Shown here in pieces: positions 42,817-51,022 of a stretch of DNA of 64,000 nucleotides. Within the stretch, counting starts at the first letter, position 1. Every line of letters starts with the position of its first letter. Both the position numbers and the translations under genes were made by a program. The stretch comes from Paractinoplanes maris (lineage in GTDB: Bacteria; Actinomycetota; Actinomycetes; Mycobacteriales; Micromonosporaceae): the NCBI RefSeq assembly GCF_023544465.1, contig NZ_JALPVL010000017.1:1-64000 (forward strand), given 5' to 3'. The notes under the pieces were generated by a model. It was not told the DNA's origin and made no database searches. It saw only the letters and a program-made list of their open reading frames with translations.

Positions 42817-43605
42817 TCACGGCTTCTCGGTCAACTCGGCCAGCCGCGCCTCGACCTCAGCCAACTCGGCCCGCAACCGCCGCGCCTGCTCCTCAGCCTC
42901 GCTGCGCTCCGCCGACAAAATCAGCTCCACCGCCTCCTGCACCCCGGGCACGTCGACCAGCGCCACCATCCGCAACGCCTCAGCCGGCCGGACCACATAA
43001 GGCTTGGCCAGCACCTTCGAACCCTGCGAAGCCGCCACCGTCCACTCGCCCTCGCCGTAGGCCAACGTCACCGTCAACGCCGGCGGCGGTTTCGGTTTCG
43101 CCGACCGGCCCGCCGCCTTCCGGGGCCCAGGAGCCGCCGTCACGTCATCGCCACCCTTCCGCGGCGCGGGAGCGCCCGCCCCGCCCTCACCGCCGGCCGC
43201 CTTGCCCACCGGCGACCCGCCGGCCCCACTGACCGCCGCTTCACCCGACCCGTTGACCGCCGCGGGCACTTTCGGCGCCACCCGTTTCGCACCGGGCGCC
43301 GGCTGATCGAGAACAAACGCCGGCCCAGCCGGAGCCGCCGGCCCGGGCGCCGCCGGGACCGCCGCCTTACGCGCGGTCGCACCCCGCGGCGCCACCCGCA
43401 GATCACCGGGGGAGAAGGGCAACTCATCCCGGCCGAACCGCACCACCACCCACTCGTCCGACGAAGCCGGATCACCCAGCTCGATCACCTGACCGAGCTG
43501 ACCCGCCATCTGCCCGGCCCCCTCGGTGAACTGGACCCGAGGCTTACGCCCGGCCGCCAGCCCGTCCCGGATCGTCTGCAACTCGTCGGTGCTCAGCCCA
43601 GCCAT
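42817..43605 (-). CDS. conserved hypothetical protein with C-terminal coiled coil
   Basis: 262 residues. A compact N-terminal domain (LSTDELQTIRDGLAAGRKPRVQFTEGAGQMAGQLGQVIEL and DEWVVVRFGRDELPFSPGDL) is followed by a long Ala/Pro/Gly/Lys linker (about 75-170), a second conserved patch (LTVTLAYGEGEWTVAASQGSKVL) and a final coiled coil of Glu/Arg/Leu heptads. I recall similar proteins in Micromonosporaceae, but no function. GGAAGG precedes the ATG by about 9 nt. No membrane segment is seen. Confidence 0.75.
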   Translation of the reverse strand: MAGLSTDELQTIRDGLAAGRKPRVQFTEGAGQMAGQLGQVIELGDPASSDEWVVVRFGRDELPFSPGDLRVAPRGATARKAAVPAAPGPAAPAGPAFVLDQPAPGAKRVAPKVPAAVNGSGEAAVSGAGGSPVGKAAGGEGGAGAPAPRKGGDDVTAAPGPRKAAGRSAKPKPPPALTVTLAYGEGEWTVAASQGSKVLAKPYVVRPAEALRMVALVDVPGVQEAVELILSAERSEAEEQARRLRAELAEVEARLAELTEKP

Positions 43606-43700
43606 CACGTCAGCCCTTCCACGGCTTCGAACATCTGTATGACACTTCTACCAGGTGCCCCCGACATTCCCGCGAGACGCCCCGCTGAAAGATTGCAGTC

Positions 43701-45088: not shown

Positions 45089-45823
45089 CTAGCAAACCGT
45101 CGGCGACCGTCCAGTGACGCAATACTCCCGGCCAGAAGTATCACGCAACGTCGTCCACTCACCAGGCACCCGCCGCACGACCGACGCCCCCAGCCCCACA
45201 TGCCGCGTCACCTCTCGGTCGACGTCATCGCACGCCAGATCCACATGCATACCGGCCGACGCCGACCCGACCCGCTGCACAAGCAGCTTCAACGGCATCC
45301 CCGCACCCCGCACCAGATGCTCGAACTCCGGGGAATCCGAGGCCCGCCGCTCCCACCCGGTCAACGCCGACCAGAACCCCACTTCACGATCAAAAACCTT
45401 CCCCGGTACGTCGACACACACCTGATCCACCAGGCTGACCTGCCCGCCCGGCCACCGCACCGGCGCCGGCCGCACCACCTCACCCGACCACGGCACCAGA
45501 CAGAACACCGCCCCGGCCGGGGACCGCAACACCACCAGATCACCCTCGTCGAGCACCACCGACGCCCCCAGACCCACCGCCTCCCCGGCCGCACCCCGCA
45601 CCGACGACACATGCAGATCCAGATGCGTACGCGGGGGAGAGGAACCCAGAACCTGCACCCGCAGATACGCGTCACCGTCACCCGGCACCAACGTCGCGAA
45701 ATCCCCCCGCCGCGCCGACAACGACGACCCCGTCACCGCCAACCAGAACGCCTCACCAGCACGCGACGGCGAATCCAGAAACCCGGTGACCCACCTGACC
45801 TCCACAAGATCGCCCCCTGTCAC
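45089..45823 (-). CDS. two-domain VOC family protein
   Basis: 244 residues, two VOC modules: residues about 8-115 (VTGFLDSPSRAGEAFWLAVTG...GAVFCLVPW) and about 125-240 (VDQVCVDVPGKVFDREVGFWSALTGWE...GREYCVTG). Each has the beta-alpha-beta-beta-beta pattern, with His/Glu in metal-ligand-like places (HLDLHVSS, HVDLACDD). The function is unknown. Start GTG 45823 or 45805; both are weakly supported. It faces the SMR pair and its 5-prime end lies 31 bp from that pair's first gene. Confidence 0.82.
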   Translation of the reverse strand: MTGGDLVEVRWVTGFLDSPSRAGEAFWLAVTGSSLSARRGDFATLVPGDGDAYLRVQVLGSSPPRTHLDLHVSSVRGAAGEAVGLGASVVLDEGDLVVLRSPAGAVFCLVPWSGEVVRPAPVRWPGGQVSLVDQVCVDVPGKVFDREVGFWSALTGWERRASDSPEFEHLVRGAGMPLKLLVQRVGSASAGMHVDLACDDVDREVTRHVGLGASVVRRVPGEWTTLRDTSGREYCVTGRSPTVC

Positions 45824-47028: not shown

Positions 47029-47511
47029 ATGAAGGTCAGACGAGCCGAAGCCGCCGACATCCCGGCGATCATGGCGATCGGACACCAGACGTGGCCACCC
47101 ACGTACGCGTTCGCCGGCGAGGACTACATCACGCACGGGCTCGCCACCTGGTGGTCAGCTGAGGCCGTTGAGCGCAGCCTGCGCAACACCACAGTGCTGA
47201 TCGCCGAGGACGAACACGGGGCGATCGGAACCGGGAACATCGACCTGCGCGCGGCCACGGCCATCATCTGGAAGCTGTACGTCGTACAACACGCCCAGGG
47301 GACCGGTGCCGGCTCAGCGCTCCTGACCGAACTCGTCCACCTGGCCGGCGGTGCTGCCGTACGGCTCGAGTACACCGACGGCAACACGCGGGCGGCCCGT
47401 TTCTACGCCGCACACGGTTTCACGGAGATCAAGCGTGAGCCCAGCGACCGGCCTGGATGGCCTGACACCGTCTGGCTCGAACGATCCATCGACGATATTC
47501 CAGGTCGTTAA
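47029..47511 (+). CDS. GNAT N-acetyltransferase
   Basis: 160 residues: MKVRRAEAADIPAIMAIGHQTWPPTY, then LYVVQHAQGTGAGSALLTELV (the acetyl-CoA loop QxxGxG/A) and NTRAARFYAAHGFTEIKRE. The ATG abuts the divergent DUF6082 start. No ribosome site is visible, which may again mean leaderless transcription. The stop codon (47509-47511) lies in the left arm of the dif-like site. Substrate unknown. Confidence 0.88.
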   Translation: MKVRRAEAADIPAIMAIGHQTWPPTYAFAGEDYITHGLATWWSAEAVERSLRNTTVLIAEDEHGAIGTGNIDLRAATAIIWKLYVVQHAQGTGAGSALLTELVHLAGGAAVRLEYTDGNTRAARFYAAHGFTEIKREPSDRPGWPDTVWLERSIDDIPGR

Positions 47512-47528
47512 TTTACATTATGTCAACC
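47501..47528. other. dif-like XerC/D recombination site
   Basis: A 28-bp site with the 11-6-11 layout of dif: left arm CAGGTCGTTAA (47501-47511), centre TTTACA (47512-47517), right arm TTATGTCAACC (47518-47528). Compared with E. coli dif, the right arm matches TTATGTTAAAT at eight of eleven places. It agrees better with the actinobacterial dif core as I remember it (right part ACATTATGTCAA). It is an AT-rich island in GC-rich DNA, 333 bp before a tyrosine recombinase gene. Chromosomal dif, an integration scar or chance are all open. Confidence 0.55.
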
Positions 47529-47847
47529 TGGGAACGGGGCGGCCCTGGCGGCAAGAATCGCAGAATCCGGCACTGACCCGCATTCAACGCGACTTGCGCG
47601 TAGACCGCCGATCCGCATTGACCTCCCGCGCCCCGGCGACAGACTTTCACGCTCGCGGCCAGGTTCCCGCAAGCCGGTCACGACACGCTGAACGTCTGGG
47701 TTGCCGATGCCGGCGCGACGATCTCGCAGGCCGAACGGCGGCGATTCTCTGGGCGCGCTGCTGATCGGCACAGTTCGACAGCGATTCCCCCGAGTGCGCC
47801 CGACAGCTGCCACCAACCTCGCTCCGTACAAACGTGCGAAAGTGCTG
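47529..47847. other. gap without a recognised gene before the recombinase
   Basis: 319 bp. In the plus direction a piece from about 47660 reads LNVWVADAGATISQAERRRF with normal codon use, but there is no start codon of quality and no family I know. It may be a gene remnant left by an insertion at the dif-like site. Confidence 0.4.
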
Positions 47848-47853
47848 TATAAT
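47848..47853 (+). promoter_or_regulatory. consensus -10 box (TATAAT) of the second recombinase
   Basis: A perfect TATAAT, 7 nt before ATG 47861. No good -35 is seen. Transcription should begin at the start codon. It is the only perfect consensus -10 noticed upstream of a gene in this window. Confidence 0.75.
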
Positions 47854-47860
47854 AGGTCAT

Positions 47861-48817
47861 ATGCATGAGAACCGGGATGCTTCGGTCAGCACGCTCATCG
47901 GAGACTTTCTTGCCGCTCGGGCTGTGCGCAAGCCGTCGGTTCACACGCTGGCGGCGTACGAGAGGGATTTGAACTCGGTTGTCGCCCTGATGGATCGTGA
48001 CAATGTCACCCTCGGTGACCTCTCCCCTCGCCTCCTGCGCGGCGCCTTTGCCCGTTTTGCGAGCTCTCGTGCACCGGCCTCGGTGGCGCGGGCCTGGTCG
48101 AGCTGGAACGCGTTCTTCACGTTCCTGGTGACCGAGCAGGTGGTGGCCGGCAATCCGATGTCGGCCGTTGACAAGCCGAAACAGGCGGTGCACTCCCCCA
48201 AGCCGTTGCGGGGTGAGGACACTCCGGAGCAGCTTCTCGATGCGGTGAGCCGGGCCGACGACCGTCAGCGGGATCCGTGGCCCGAGCGTGATGTCGCTGT
48301 GCTCGCGCTCGCTCTGTGTGCCGGTCTGCGGTTGTCGGAGCTTCTGGGGTTGCGTGTCGGCTCGTTCCTGGGGCGTCCGGGTGAGCGGCGGGTCGAGGTG
48401 GCCGGTAAGGGTGGCCGGCCGCGGACCGTACCGGTGGAGCCGGAGCTGGATGCGGTGGTGCAGCGTTATGTGGAGAGCCGTCGTCTGCGGTTCGGCCGGG
48501 TGGGTGCCGGTGACGCGCTGATGGTGGATCGGCGGGGCGCTCCCCTGCAGCGTGGTGGTCTGCAGTATCTGGTGAGTTCGTGTTACCGGCGGGCCGGGGT
48601 GAACGATCGGGTGCCGCGGGGTGCTCAGTTGCATGCGTTGCGGCACACGTTCGCGACGCGGCTGGCTGAGGACGGGGCGAATGCCAGCGAGATCATGCGG
48701 TTGCTGGGGCATGCGTCGTTGGCGACGTCGCAGAACTACATCGAGGTGACGGCGGAGCAGCAGCGCGCGGCCGTGCGGGCGAACCGCACGAACCGCGCGC
48801 TGGGCAGGCTGGGGTGA
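47861..48817 (+). CDS. tyrosine recombinase near the dif-like site
   Basis: 318 residues. N-terminal SAM-like domain (about 10-105) and catalytic domain with Arg157 (GLRLSE), Lys183 (GKGGRPR), His258/Arg261 (HALRHTF), His284 (LGHASLATS) and nucleophile Tyr293. The enzyme resembles XerC/XerD and small dif-using integrases. ATG 47861 is 7 nt after TATAAT, so the mRNA is leaderless. No phage or plasmid gene follows. Together with the dif-like site it could be a housekeeping resolution system or an element that uses dif (inference). Confidence 0.92.
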   Translation: MHENRDASVSTLIGDFLAARAVRKPSVHTLAAYERDLNSVVALMDRDNVTLGDLSPRLLRGAFARFASSRAPASVARAWSSWNAFFTFLVTEQVVAGNPMSAVDKPKQAVHSPKPLRGEDTPEQLLDAVSRADDRQRDPWPERDVAVLALALCAGLRLSELLGLRVGSFLGRPGERRVEVAGKGGRPRTVPVEPELDAVVQRYVESRRLRFGRVGAGDALMVDRRGAPLQRGGLQYLVSSCYRRAGVNDRVPRGAQLHALRHTFATRLAEDGANASEIMRLLGHASLATSQNYIEVTAEQQRAAVRANRTNRALGRLG

Positions 48818-50264: not shown

Positions 50265-51022
50265 ACGAGCAGGGGCAGGTGGTCGGACAGGGCCGGGCGG
50301 GTGGTGGCGACCTGGACGACACGGCCGAGGTCGTCGAGGCCGCGCGGGTCGGCCAGGATGTGGTCGAGCTGGACGCGGGGCATCGGGCTGGGGAAGGTCT
50401 CGGCGCGGGCGAGGGTGCGCCAGCCGGTGACGGCGCGGACCGGGCGGGCGGGCATGTTGAGGTCGCCCAGCAGGACGCGGGGGGCCGGGAGGGCGCGCAG
50501 GGCGCGGACGGCGTGGCGTAGCTGGCGCAGGTTCCAGCCGGGCACGAACGACAGGTGGGTGGTGGCGACGGTCATCGGGCCGCCGGGGGTGTCGAGGACC
50601 GCGGCGAGCAGCACGCGGGGTTCGTCCTTGAGCAGCCGCAGGCCGTTGTCGGGGTCGTAGATGGGTGAGCGCATGGGCGCGCCGGGCAGGGTGGTGATCT
50701 GCCAGCGGGTGACCGGGTAGCGGCTGACCAGGGCGATGCCGTAGAGGGGGTGCTGGTTGTCGTCGTCGCTGCGCCAGGGTTGCCAGGTCTCCCCCGGGGT
50801 GCCGACGACGGCGGCGGCGAAGCGGTGCACGGAGGCGCCGAGCGCGTCGGCGGCGATGGCGGTGAGGTCGAGCAGGCCGCTGCGGGGCTGGGCTTTGTCG
50901 ACCTCCTGGAGCCCGAGGACGTCGGCGTCGAGGTCGGTCACGGCGGCGGCGACCCGATCGGCGTGTACCGTGCCGTCGGACAGGGATCGGCCGTGCAGGA
51001 GGTTGAACGTAGCCAGGCGCAC
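50246..51022 (-). CDS. endonuclease/exonuclease/phosphatase family protein
   Basis: 258 residues of the EEP fold: VRLATFNLLHGRS (Asn motif), LGLQEVDK (catalytic Glu), THLSFVPGWN, LLGDLNMPAR (Asp-Leu-Asn) and SDHLPLLV (Asp-His). It could be a phosphodiesterase or phosphatase acting on nucleic acid, lipids or nucleotides; no signal peptide is seen. GTG 51022 was chosen because homologues begin with this strand and it lies 7 nt behind TATATA on this strand. An upstream ATG at 51061 would overlap the divergent small gene. Confidence 0.87.
   Translation of the reverse strand: MRLATFNLLHGRSLSDGTVHADRVAAAVTDLDADVLGLQEVDKAQPRSGLLDLTAIAADALGASVHRFAAAVVGTPGETWQPWRSDDDNQHPLYGIALVSRYPVTRWQITTLPGAPMRSPIYDPDNGLRLLKDEPRVLLAAVLDTPGGPMTVATTHLSFVPGWNLRQLRHAVRALRALPAPRVLLGDLNMPARPVRAVTGWRTLARAETFPSPMPRVQLDHILADPRGLDDLGRVVQVATTRPALSDHLPLLVQLDRK

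Follow-up and report, generated by a model that had tools for sequence, protein, structure and literature searches.

A dif-like sequence a few hundred base pairs in front of a tyrosine recombinase gene raises two questions: whether the sequence is the dif of its chromosome, and what the recombinase does beside it. We analysed a window of 64,000 nucleotides (bases 1–64,000 of contig C9, 279,808 bp) from a genome of 9,351,851 bp in 31 contigs. A preliminary description of this DNA had proposed a 28-bp site with an 11-6-11 layout that overlaps the stop of a GNAT gene and is followed by the recombinase gene. It had read the site as the chromosomal dif, with the window at the terminus, or else as the mark of an element integrated at dif. 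The sequence, coordinates and layout of the site were all borne out (Table 1). The GNAT stop codon (47509–47511) falls inside the site, and 332 bp separate the site from the recombinase ATG at 47861.

Table 1. Positions in the window of dif, the second site, the recombinase gene and the nearest strand-polar motifs.
Feature	Position	Strand	Details
Nearest CGGGGGAG left of dif	45632–45639	+	points towards dif
GNAT acetyltransferase gene	47029–47511	+	3' end overlaps dif; neighbour, outside the recombinase module
dif, 28 bp, CAGGTCGTTAA-TTTACA-TTATGTCAACC	47501–47528	+	single genomic copy; likeness to F. alni dif; counterparts in relatives
dif XerC arm	47501–47511	+	11-6-11 layout
dif centre	47512–47517	+	11-6-11 layout
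dif XerD arm	47518–47528	+	11-6-11 layout
Second site, GTGCTGTATAA-TAGGTC-ATATGCATGAG	47842–47869	+	313 bp right of dif; placed by start alignment and arm pairing
Tyrosine recombinase P0003, 318 aa	47861–48817	+	catalytic R157, K183, H258, R261, H284, Y293
Nearest GGGGGAG right of dif (CTCCCCC on + strand)	48193–48199	-	points towards dif
Nearest CGGGGGAG right of dif	50789–50796	-	bottom strand

The 28-mer is the chromosomal dif at the replication terminus. With up to three mismatches allowed, it matched its own genome once and a reversed control not at all, and a looser dif consensus led to the same single place. The agreement with the actinobacterial dif core stated in the preliminary description also holds. 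The predicted Frankia alni dif, as given in the accessible part of PMC3025954, is identical at 21 of 28 positions, and a dif-based consensus (GNNGWTAATNNACATTATGTCAA, up to two mismatches) occurs in 54 of 60 genomes (own included), once in each, against one reversed-control match in all. The single match in the own genome and the 54 of 60 genomes with near-empty reversed controls place the dif match far beyond chance. Across 150 genomes of the family to which the window belongs (f1, probably Micromonosporaceae, to judge from the names of related loci), a dif pattern with up to three mismatches was found in 110, twice in 6 of these, and its reversed control in 9. The XerC arm is worn in several close relatives of the window, and a 17-bp stretch like ATCCATCGACGATATYC to the left of dif is alike in the window and its close relatives (L073–L083), including those that diverge beyond its left end. 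Of 30 relatives' dif loci searched by tblastn, only L030 shares the GNAT gene at dif with the window. The alternative of an element integrated at dif was not supported, no second dif copy being found in the own genome; nor was an IMEX there, one copy at up to three mismatches leaving no two dif copies to flank foreign DNA.

A GC-skew switch, which had been proposed as a mark of the terminus, was not seen in a complete genome of the same genus (G176; 20 stretches, means of +0.005 and +0.002, p 0.97), and contig C9 showed no clear switch. Because bulk GC skew was uninformative, we replaced it with a polar octamer, CGGGGGAG, chosen on G176 as the most strand-biased word (39 leading, 1 lagging) and then tested on other sequence. 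On C9 the octamer occurs 7 times on the top strand and 0 on the bottom strand to the left of dif, and 0 and 20 times, respectively, to the right; the strand switch falls between 45.6 and 50.8 kb. Its heptamer GGGGGAG changes strand at dif in the same way, with 11/11 occurrences left of dif on the top strand and 36/36 right of dif on the bottom strand of the window's own contig, 500 of 509 heptamers in 62 family loci, and 125/130, 72/77 and 95/99 in three other groups. The look for FtsK-orienting motifs that had accompanied the proposal yielded a candidate by analogy, GGGGGAG/CGGGGGAG, converging on dif; the accessible portion of a paper on FtsK-orienting-type words (PMC5993296) does not print it. 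A single conserved dif together with the switch of the polar motif means that the window holds the terminus.

The genome also encodes XerC (contig C1, near dprA and rpsB/tsf/pyrH) and XerD (contig C31, between alanine dehydrogenase [ald] and parA genes), these names and those of ald and the ParA-type gene being our probable reading of the translations. The site thus has the 11-6-11 layout and core sequence of the phylum, a single copy at the terminus between switching polar motifs, and both recombinases encoded in the genome, as in canonical XerCD/dif, and XerCD recombination is predicted at it. Matches to XerC and XerD were present in 37 of 40 genomes sampled, including all 33 chromosomes or genomes that bear the adjacent recombinase. 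Three genomes from three genera of the family (G070, G075 and G098) are without dif, XerC, XerD and the adjacent recombinase together. The same holds for dif and the recombinase in every other member of these genera that was sampled, save for a 3-mismatch dif-like match in G199; the chromosomes may be linear there, or may rely on another system.

The product of the adjacent gene, P0003, scored 176.9 bits against the XerC model, 158.2 against XerD and 150.5 against PRK00283, under the respective cutoffs of 335, 330 and 279, and 70.4 bits against XerS (cutoff 267). The genome's own XerC and XerD score 306.4 and 324.9 bits against their equivalog models, also under the cutoffs (335 and 330), and they pass the third model; both pass NF001399. 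In a tree of 85 proteins, built by a quick method with long branches flagged, 54 relatives of P0003 fall together with a support of 99, and the 15 XerC and 15 XerD proteins lie outside their clade. The assignment of P0003 as XerC or XerD was rejected on its scores under the cutoffs, its separate clade and the presence of XerC and XerD genes elsewhere in the genome.

P0003 has intact catalytic residues. The catalytic R157 and K183 are kept in 66/66 relatives and H258, R261, H284 and Y293 in 65/66, the exception being a fragment. It is these intact residues by themselves that speak for catalysis, and for dimer resolution, by P0003, both of which we treat as predictions. Values of dN/dS against six close relatives were 0.08–0.18, consistent with purifying selection on the recombinase. 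The predicted structure (mean pLDDT 86.8, pTM 0.66; residues 287–293 below 50) and Foldseek confirmed that the protein is a tyrosine recombinase but went no further (TM-scores of about 0.4–0.65), and a PDB profile search gave XerD as the best match (E 3.4e-35). The accessible part of PMC8138268 places such proteins among the simple tyrosine recombinases. A fourth tyrosine recombinase in the window, P0006 (23016–23942, 24 kb from dif), is flanked by an ABC-F ATPase-like gene and an uppP-like gene and is under the XerC, XerD and PRK00283 cutoffs.

P0003 (E ≤ 1e-50) is present in 76 of the 150 family genomes, in 20 of 44 genera, and its gene is close to dif in nearly all of them. One contig holds both gene and dif in 74 of the 76, with dif always on the start side of the gene and 266–9,742 bp upstream (within 2 kb in 66), in the same orientation as the gene in 66 and the opposite orientation in 8. 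Outside this pattern, the best that G066 offers is a dif-like sequence with 4 mismatches, 633 bp upstream, and G124 has dif on another contig. Among 62 named family loci, which include Actinoplanes, Paractinoplanes, Micromonospora, Salinispora and Plantactinospora (L135, a weak match from another family, was dropped), 61 have a dif-like site (up to four mismatches) 282–3,123 bp upstream in the same orientation, and the other lacks upstream DNA. In the order as a whole, relatives of P0003 (E ≤ 1e-35) were found in 83 of 298 genomes. In a second family, f15, which we guess to be Pseudonocardiaceae, dif lies 283–961 bp upstream and inverted in 13 of 22 loci fetched, the other 9 having no good dif in the stretch. 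The recombinase is absent from 35 of 110 dif-bearing family genomes, so the module that it forms with its site is dispensable; nor is it a replacement for XerCD, since all 33 recombinase-bearing samples still encode XerC and XerD.

That site, a second and conserved 28-bp sequence of 11-6-11 layout, lies at the start of the recombinase gene. The "perfect TATAAT" before the recombinase in the preliminary description is indeed present (47848–47853); it is the left arm of this site, whose right arm holds the recombinase ATG (47861–47863), and it may serve in addition as a -10 element. In the window 6 of 11 arm pairs are complementary, and close relatives are equally weak. In many other relatives the site is a palindrome with 8–11 of 11 pairs, as in TTCATGCATAA-TGGCAA-TTATGCATGAA from f15 and ATCATGCATAA-TATCCC-TTATGCATGAC from Micromonospora.

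We scanned 103 loci (1.99 Mb) for palindromes with at least 8 of 11 pairs and TAA...TTA. This gave rise to 80 matches, one of them a dif itself (L131), and 71 lie within -400 to +60 of the gene start. Of 63 family loci (the window and L073–L134), 51 contained a palindrome by this rule and 12, the window among them, did not; a looser rule found the site in 61 of the 62 family loci with dif. A few cases depend on the rule: L076 and L080 fail the arm-pairing rule, and L193 and L195 fail the looser rule and pass the scan. Across 77 distinct sites, arm complementarity is 82.6%; 2000 shuffles, which ignore relatedness, averaged 74.1% and never exceeded 77.4%. Pairs 3, 4 and 7 have changes on both arm sides, which we read as probable compensatory changes in the arms.

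The second site is single-copy in its own genome and lies between the converging polar motifs, as dif does. The sequence TGYATAATRNNNCWTATGCA, with up to two mismatches, has its sole own-genome match at 47846–47865 and marks the gene start in 24/24 genomes tested of the window's clade; near dif, it was not found in 12 genomes with dif and without the recombinase. Additional, distant matches occur in three more of these 24 recombinase-bearing genomes (G065, G107 and G194) and in dif-only genomes (G080 and G163), G070 has a 1-mismatch match, and the reversed control matched in 3 of 44 genomes. The median offset between the site and dif is 462, 465, 285 and 378 bp in four groups, with separations from 237 bp to 3.1 kb on either side of dif. 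A polar motif stands between dif and the site in 6/61, 0/13, 0/7 and 0/11 loci with a detected site.

Such clustering could reflect no more than a gene order that is conserved around the terminus. Some neighbours besides the recombinase are indeed kept as well: a gene on the - strand at 42817–43608 of the window, about 4–5 kb left of the recombinase, is kept in 55 of 63 family loci, its position varying. The deciding test is therefore where the site lies in genomes in which the gene has moved. In six loci (L184, L186, L188, L190, L192 and L196) the gene is 1.5–9.7 kb away and the site 214–369 bp from dif; in L197 about 1.8 kb separate the site from dif, and 1.5 kb separate it from the gene. 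In 11 f15 genomes the gene is unlinked, 143 kb to 1.57 Mb away on the same contig (six) or on a separate contig (five), and the site is 340–610 bp from dif in 10 of them, or 335–610 bp in 11/11 by the looser rule. That the site keeps near dif when the gene moves, that the orientation of dif relative to the gene has changed while both stayed close, and that the arms carry what look like compensatory changes all count against simple gene order, an explanation to which we give very little credence.

Genomes without the recombinase provide the converse. The palindrome was found within 1.3 kb of dif in 0 of 20 family genomes and 0 of 7 f15 genomes with dif and without the recombinase, under the looser rule as well (both are chosen sets, the 20 being taken from the 35 in the family); one of the 20 has a palindrome 5.6 kb from dif, and none of the 20 has a tyrosine recombinase within about 6 kb of dif. 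A site near dif where the gene has moved, and none near dif without the recombinase, together establish that the gene and second site occur together and that the nearness of the site to dif outlives that of the gene. The nearness is not strict, since in the window's clade the site is at the gene start and moves along with the gene, lying 2.3–3.1 kb from dif in L092, L129 and L132. One further genome, G292 (L317), has an 11/11 palindrome 935 bp from its chromosomal dif and its only recombinase match on a 191-kb contig, perhaps a plasmid; in the similar genomes G042 and G362 no such palindrome was found in 1.5 kb on either side.

These distributions bear on the idea that the palindrome is an operator only, through which the recombinase represses its own gene, its real target lying elsewhere (dif itself, for example). 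In the window's clade the site covers TATAAT or CATAAT and the start codon, and it travels with the gene in L092, L129 and L132, which would suit an operator. The palindrome nevertheless stays near dif despite a distant gene in six loci and in 10 of the 11 f15 genomes, so that operator as its sole function is unlikely; we regard this explanation as quite improbable.

We consider it somewhat probable that the locus encodes a second, single-recombinase resolution module beside dif, consisting of a P0003-type enzyme and its own 28-bp site. By the established logic of Xer systems, a small catalytic recombinase that has a single 11-6-11 site on each chromosome can recombine nothing but the sister copies of that site, which amounts to dimer resolution or unlinking. 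On this model, two copies of P0003 would bind the 28-bp site, and the bound site would recombine with the copy on the sister chromosome. FtsK, led by the inward-pointing GGGGGAG, would bring the terminus to the division septum, and P0003 would recombine its sites at that time. The outcome would be a second route, alongside XerCD/dif, to chromosome dimer resolution or to the final unlinking of the termini. Where the site covers the promoter-like hexamer and the start codon, as in the clade of the window, binding of P0003 would also repress its own gene. This reading is favoured by the place of the gene beside dif, by a site that keeps to dif in several clades after the gene has moved, by the joint occurrence of the two, by the arm pairing, the intact catalytic residues and dN/dS values, by the polar motifs and by the palindromes of plasmid relatives. 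Telling against it are the weak palindrome of the window's clade (6 of 11 pairs in the window) and the worn dif XerC arm of close relatives, a nearness of site and dif that is not strict in that clade, the retention of XerCD, the dispensability of the module, the two groups of f15 in the protein tree, and the Mycolicibacterium plasmid loci in which the rule used found no palindrome. For the wider statement, that many Micromonosporaceae and a second large family of the order keep XerCD/dif beside a third Xer recombinase with a near-dif site, used in trans if the gene has moved, we see the balance as even. That the two systems share the work, for example by serving vegetative growth and sporulation respectively, is speculation.

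The main rival gives the recombinase an accessory role. Accessory proteins act at plasmid sites such as cer, and the recombinase, bound at its site and no resolver itself, could similarly form a complex that acts on XerCD/dif, affecting the selectivity of resolution or the alignment of sister termini. The site and dif are mostly a few hundred bp apart (medians above), XerCD is always kept alongside the recombinase in our sample, and the recombinase is likewise missing from G070, G075 and G098, in which XerC, XerD and dif were not found, all as an accessory complex would have it. Against such a role stand the catalytic residues, which are kept without exception (the fragment aside), and the 11-6-11 layout, which is that of a crossover site; in addition, the separation and side of the site vary from 237 bp to 3.1 kb on either side of dif, and plasmid relatives with such a palindrome exist. 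We judge the accessory role to be unlikely, though a serious contender.

The plasmid relatives comprise 57 matches in 72,556 plasmid records, from Mycobacterium, Mycolicibacterium, Rhodococcus and Prescottella, and are 37–41% identical to P0003 among the matches listed (30 of 57). Of five plasmids examined, two from Rhodococcus (L312 and L313) carry upstream palindromes of 11/11 and 10/11, and the Mycolicibacterium loci L310, L311 and L314 have none by the rule used. Three plasmid-sized contigs among the genomes analysed (L180, L182 and L185) have palindromes of 8–10/11. Relatives of this kind suggest that multimer resolution may be their trade.

They also raise the possibility that a mobile element (plasmid or IMEX-like) once targeted the terminus and that P0003 is what is left of it, or a resident form of it; the palindrome would then be an old attachment or plasmid-resolution site. 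The occurrence of both dif orientations relative to the gene is in keeping with such an origin, as is the division of f15 into two groups in the 85-protein tree, which indicates that inheritance was not simply vertical. A mobile element is harder to reconcile with an own genome in which no additional copy of dif or of the second site was found around foreign DNA, with the apparent purifying selection, with a gene that has kept its place by dif in 74 of the 76 family genomes (20 genera) that carry it, and with recombinase-less dif loci that bear no trace of it. This origin seems to us improbable.

A second resolution module would share features with several known systems. XerS/difSL of streptococci and lactococci and XerH/difH of Helicobacter and Campylobacter are modules of one recombinase and a nearby site (PMC5357621, accessible part). 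Like them, the module proposed here would have a single recombinase with a nearby site, a terminus location and palindromic arms, though the palindrome is weak in the window itself; they replace XerCD, whereas here XerC and XerD are present and dif lies next to the module, which does not stand in place of XerCD/dif. In the accessible part of PMC9765430, XerL/dif of Legionellales has a single recombinase whose gene may be distant from the site, even plasmid-borne, much as the gene is away from the site in some of our relatives. XerL, which we compared by description, has no other Xer system and no adjacent canonical dif, in contrast to the coexistence with XerCD/dif seen here. An IMEX at dif likewise has a recombination gene beside dif; the present module differs in having its own recombinase and a site unlike dif, and in the own genome no foreign DNA was found between copies of dif. 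From XerCD/dif itself it is set apart by a third protein that scores under the cutoffs, belongs to a separate clade and goes with a different palindromic site.

The described Xer systems compared here, in the portions of the sources available, number one per chromosome, either XerCD/dif or a single-recombinase replacement. We found no description of the present arrangement in the open-licence literature among the matches listed, and the whole words "dif" and "Xer" are both absent from the accessible part of a Micromonospora chromosome study (PMC11537254); the module beside dif is apparently undescribed so far. If true, the retention of two Xer systems close to each other at the terminus in several families would raise the question of whether they represent redundancy, division of labour or cooperation, and could be an intermediate in the origin of single-recombinase systems. 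The pair would also provide a sharp terminus marker for draft actinobacterial genomes and a compact recombinase and site for genetics. A further tyrosine recombinase, distinct from P0003 and sharing 27% identity with it, is encoded ~0.4 kb from dif in G037, a genome of family f3 (L007, 1711–2859).
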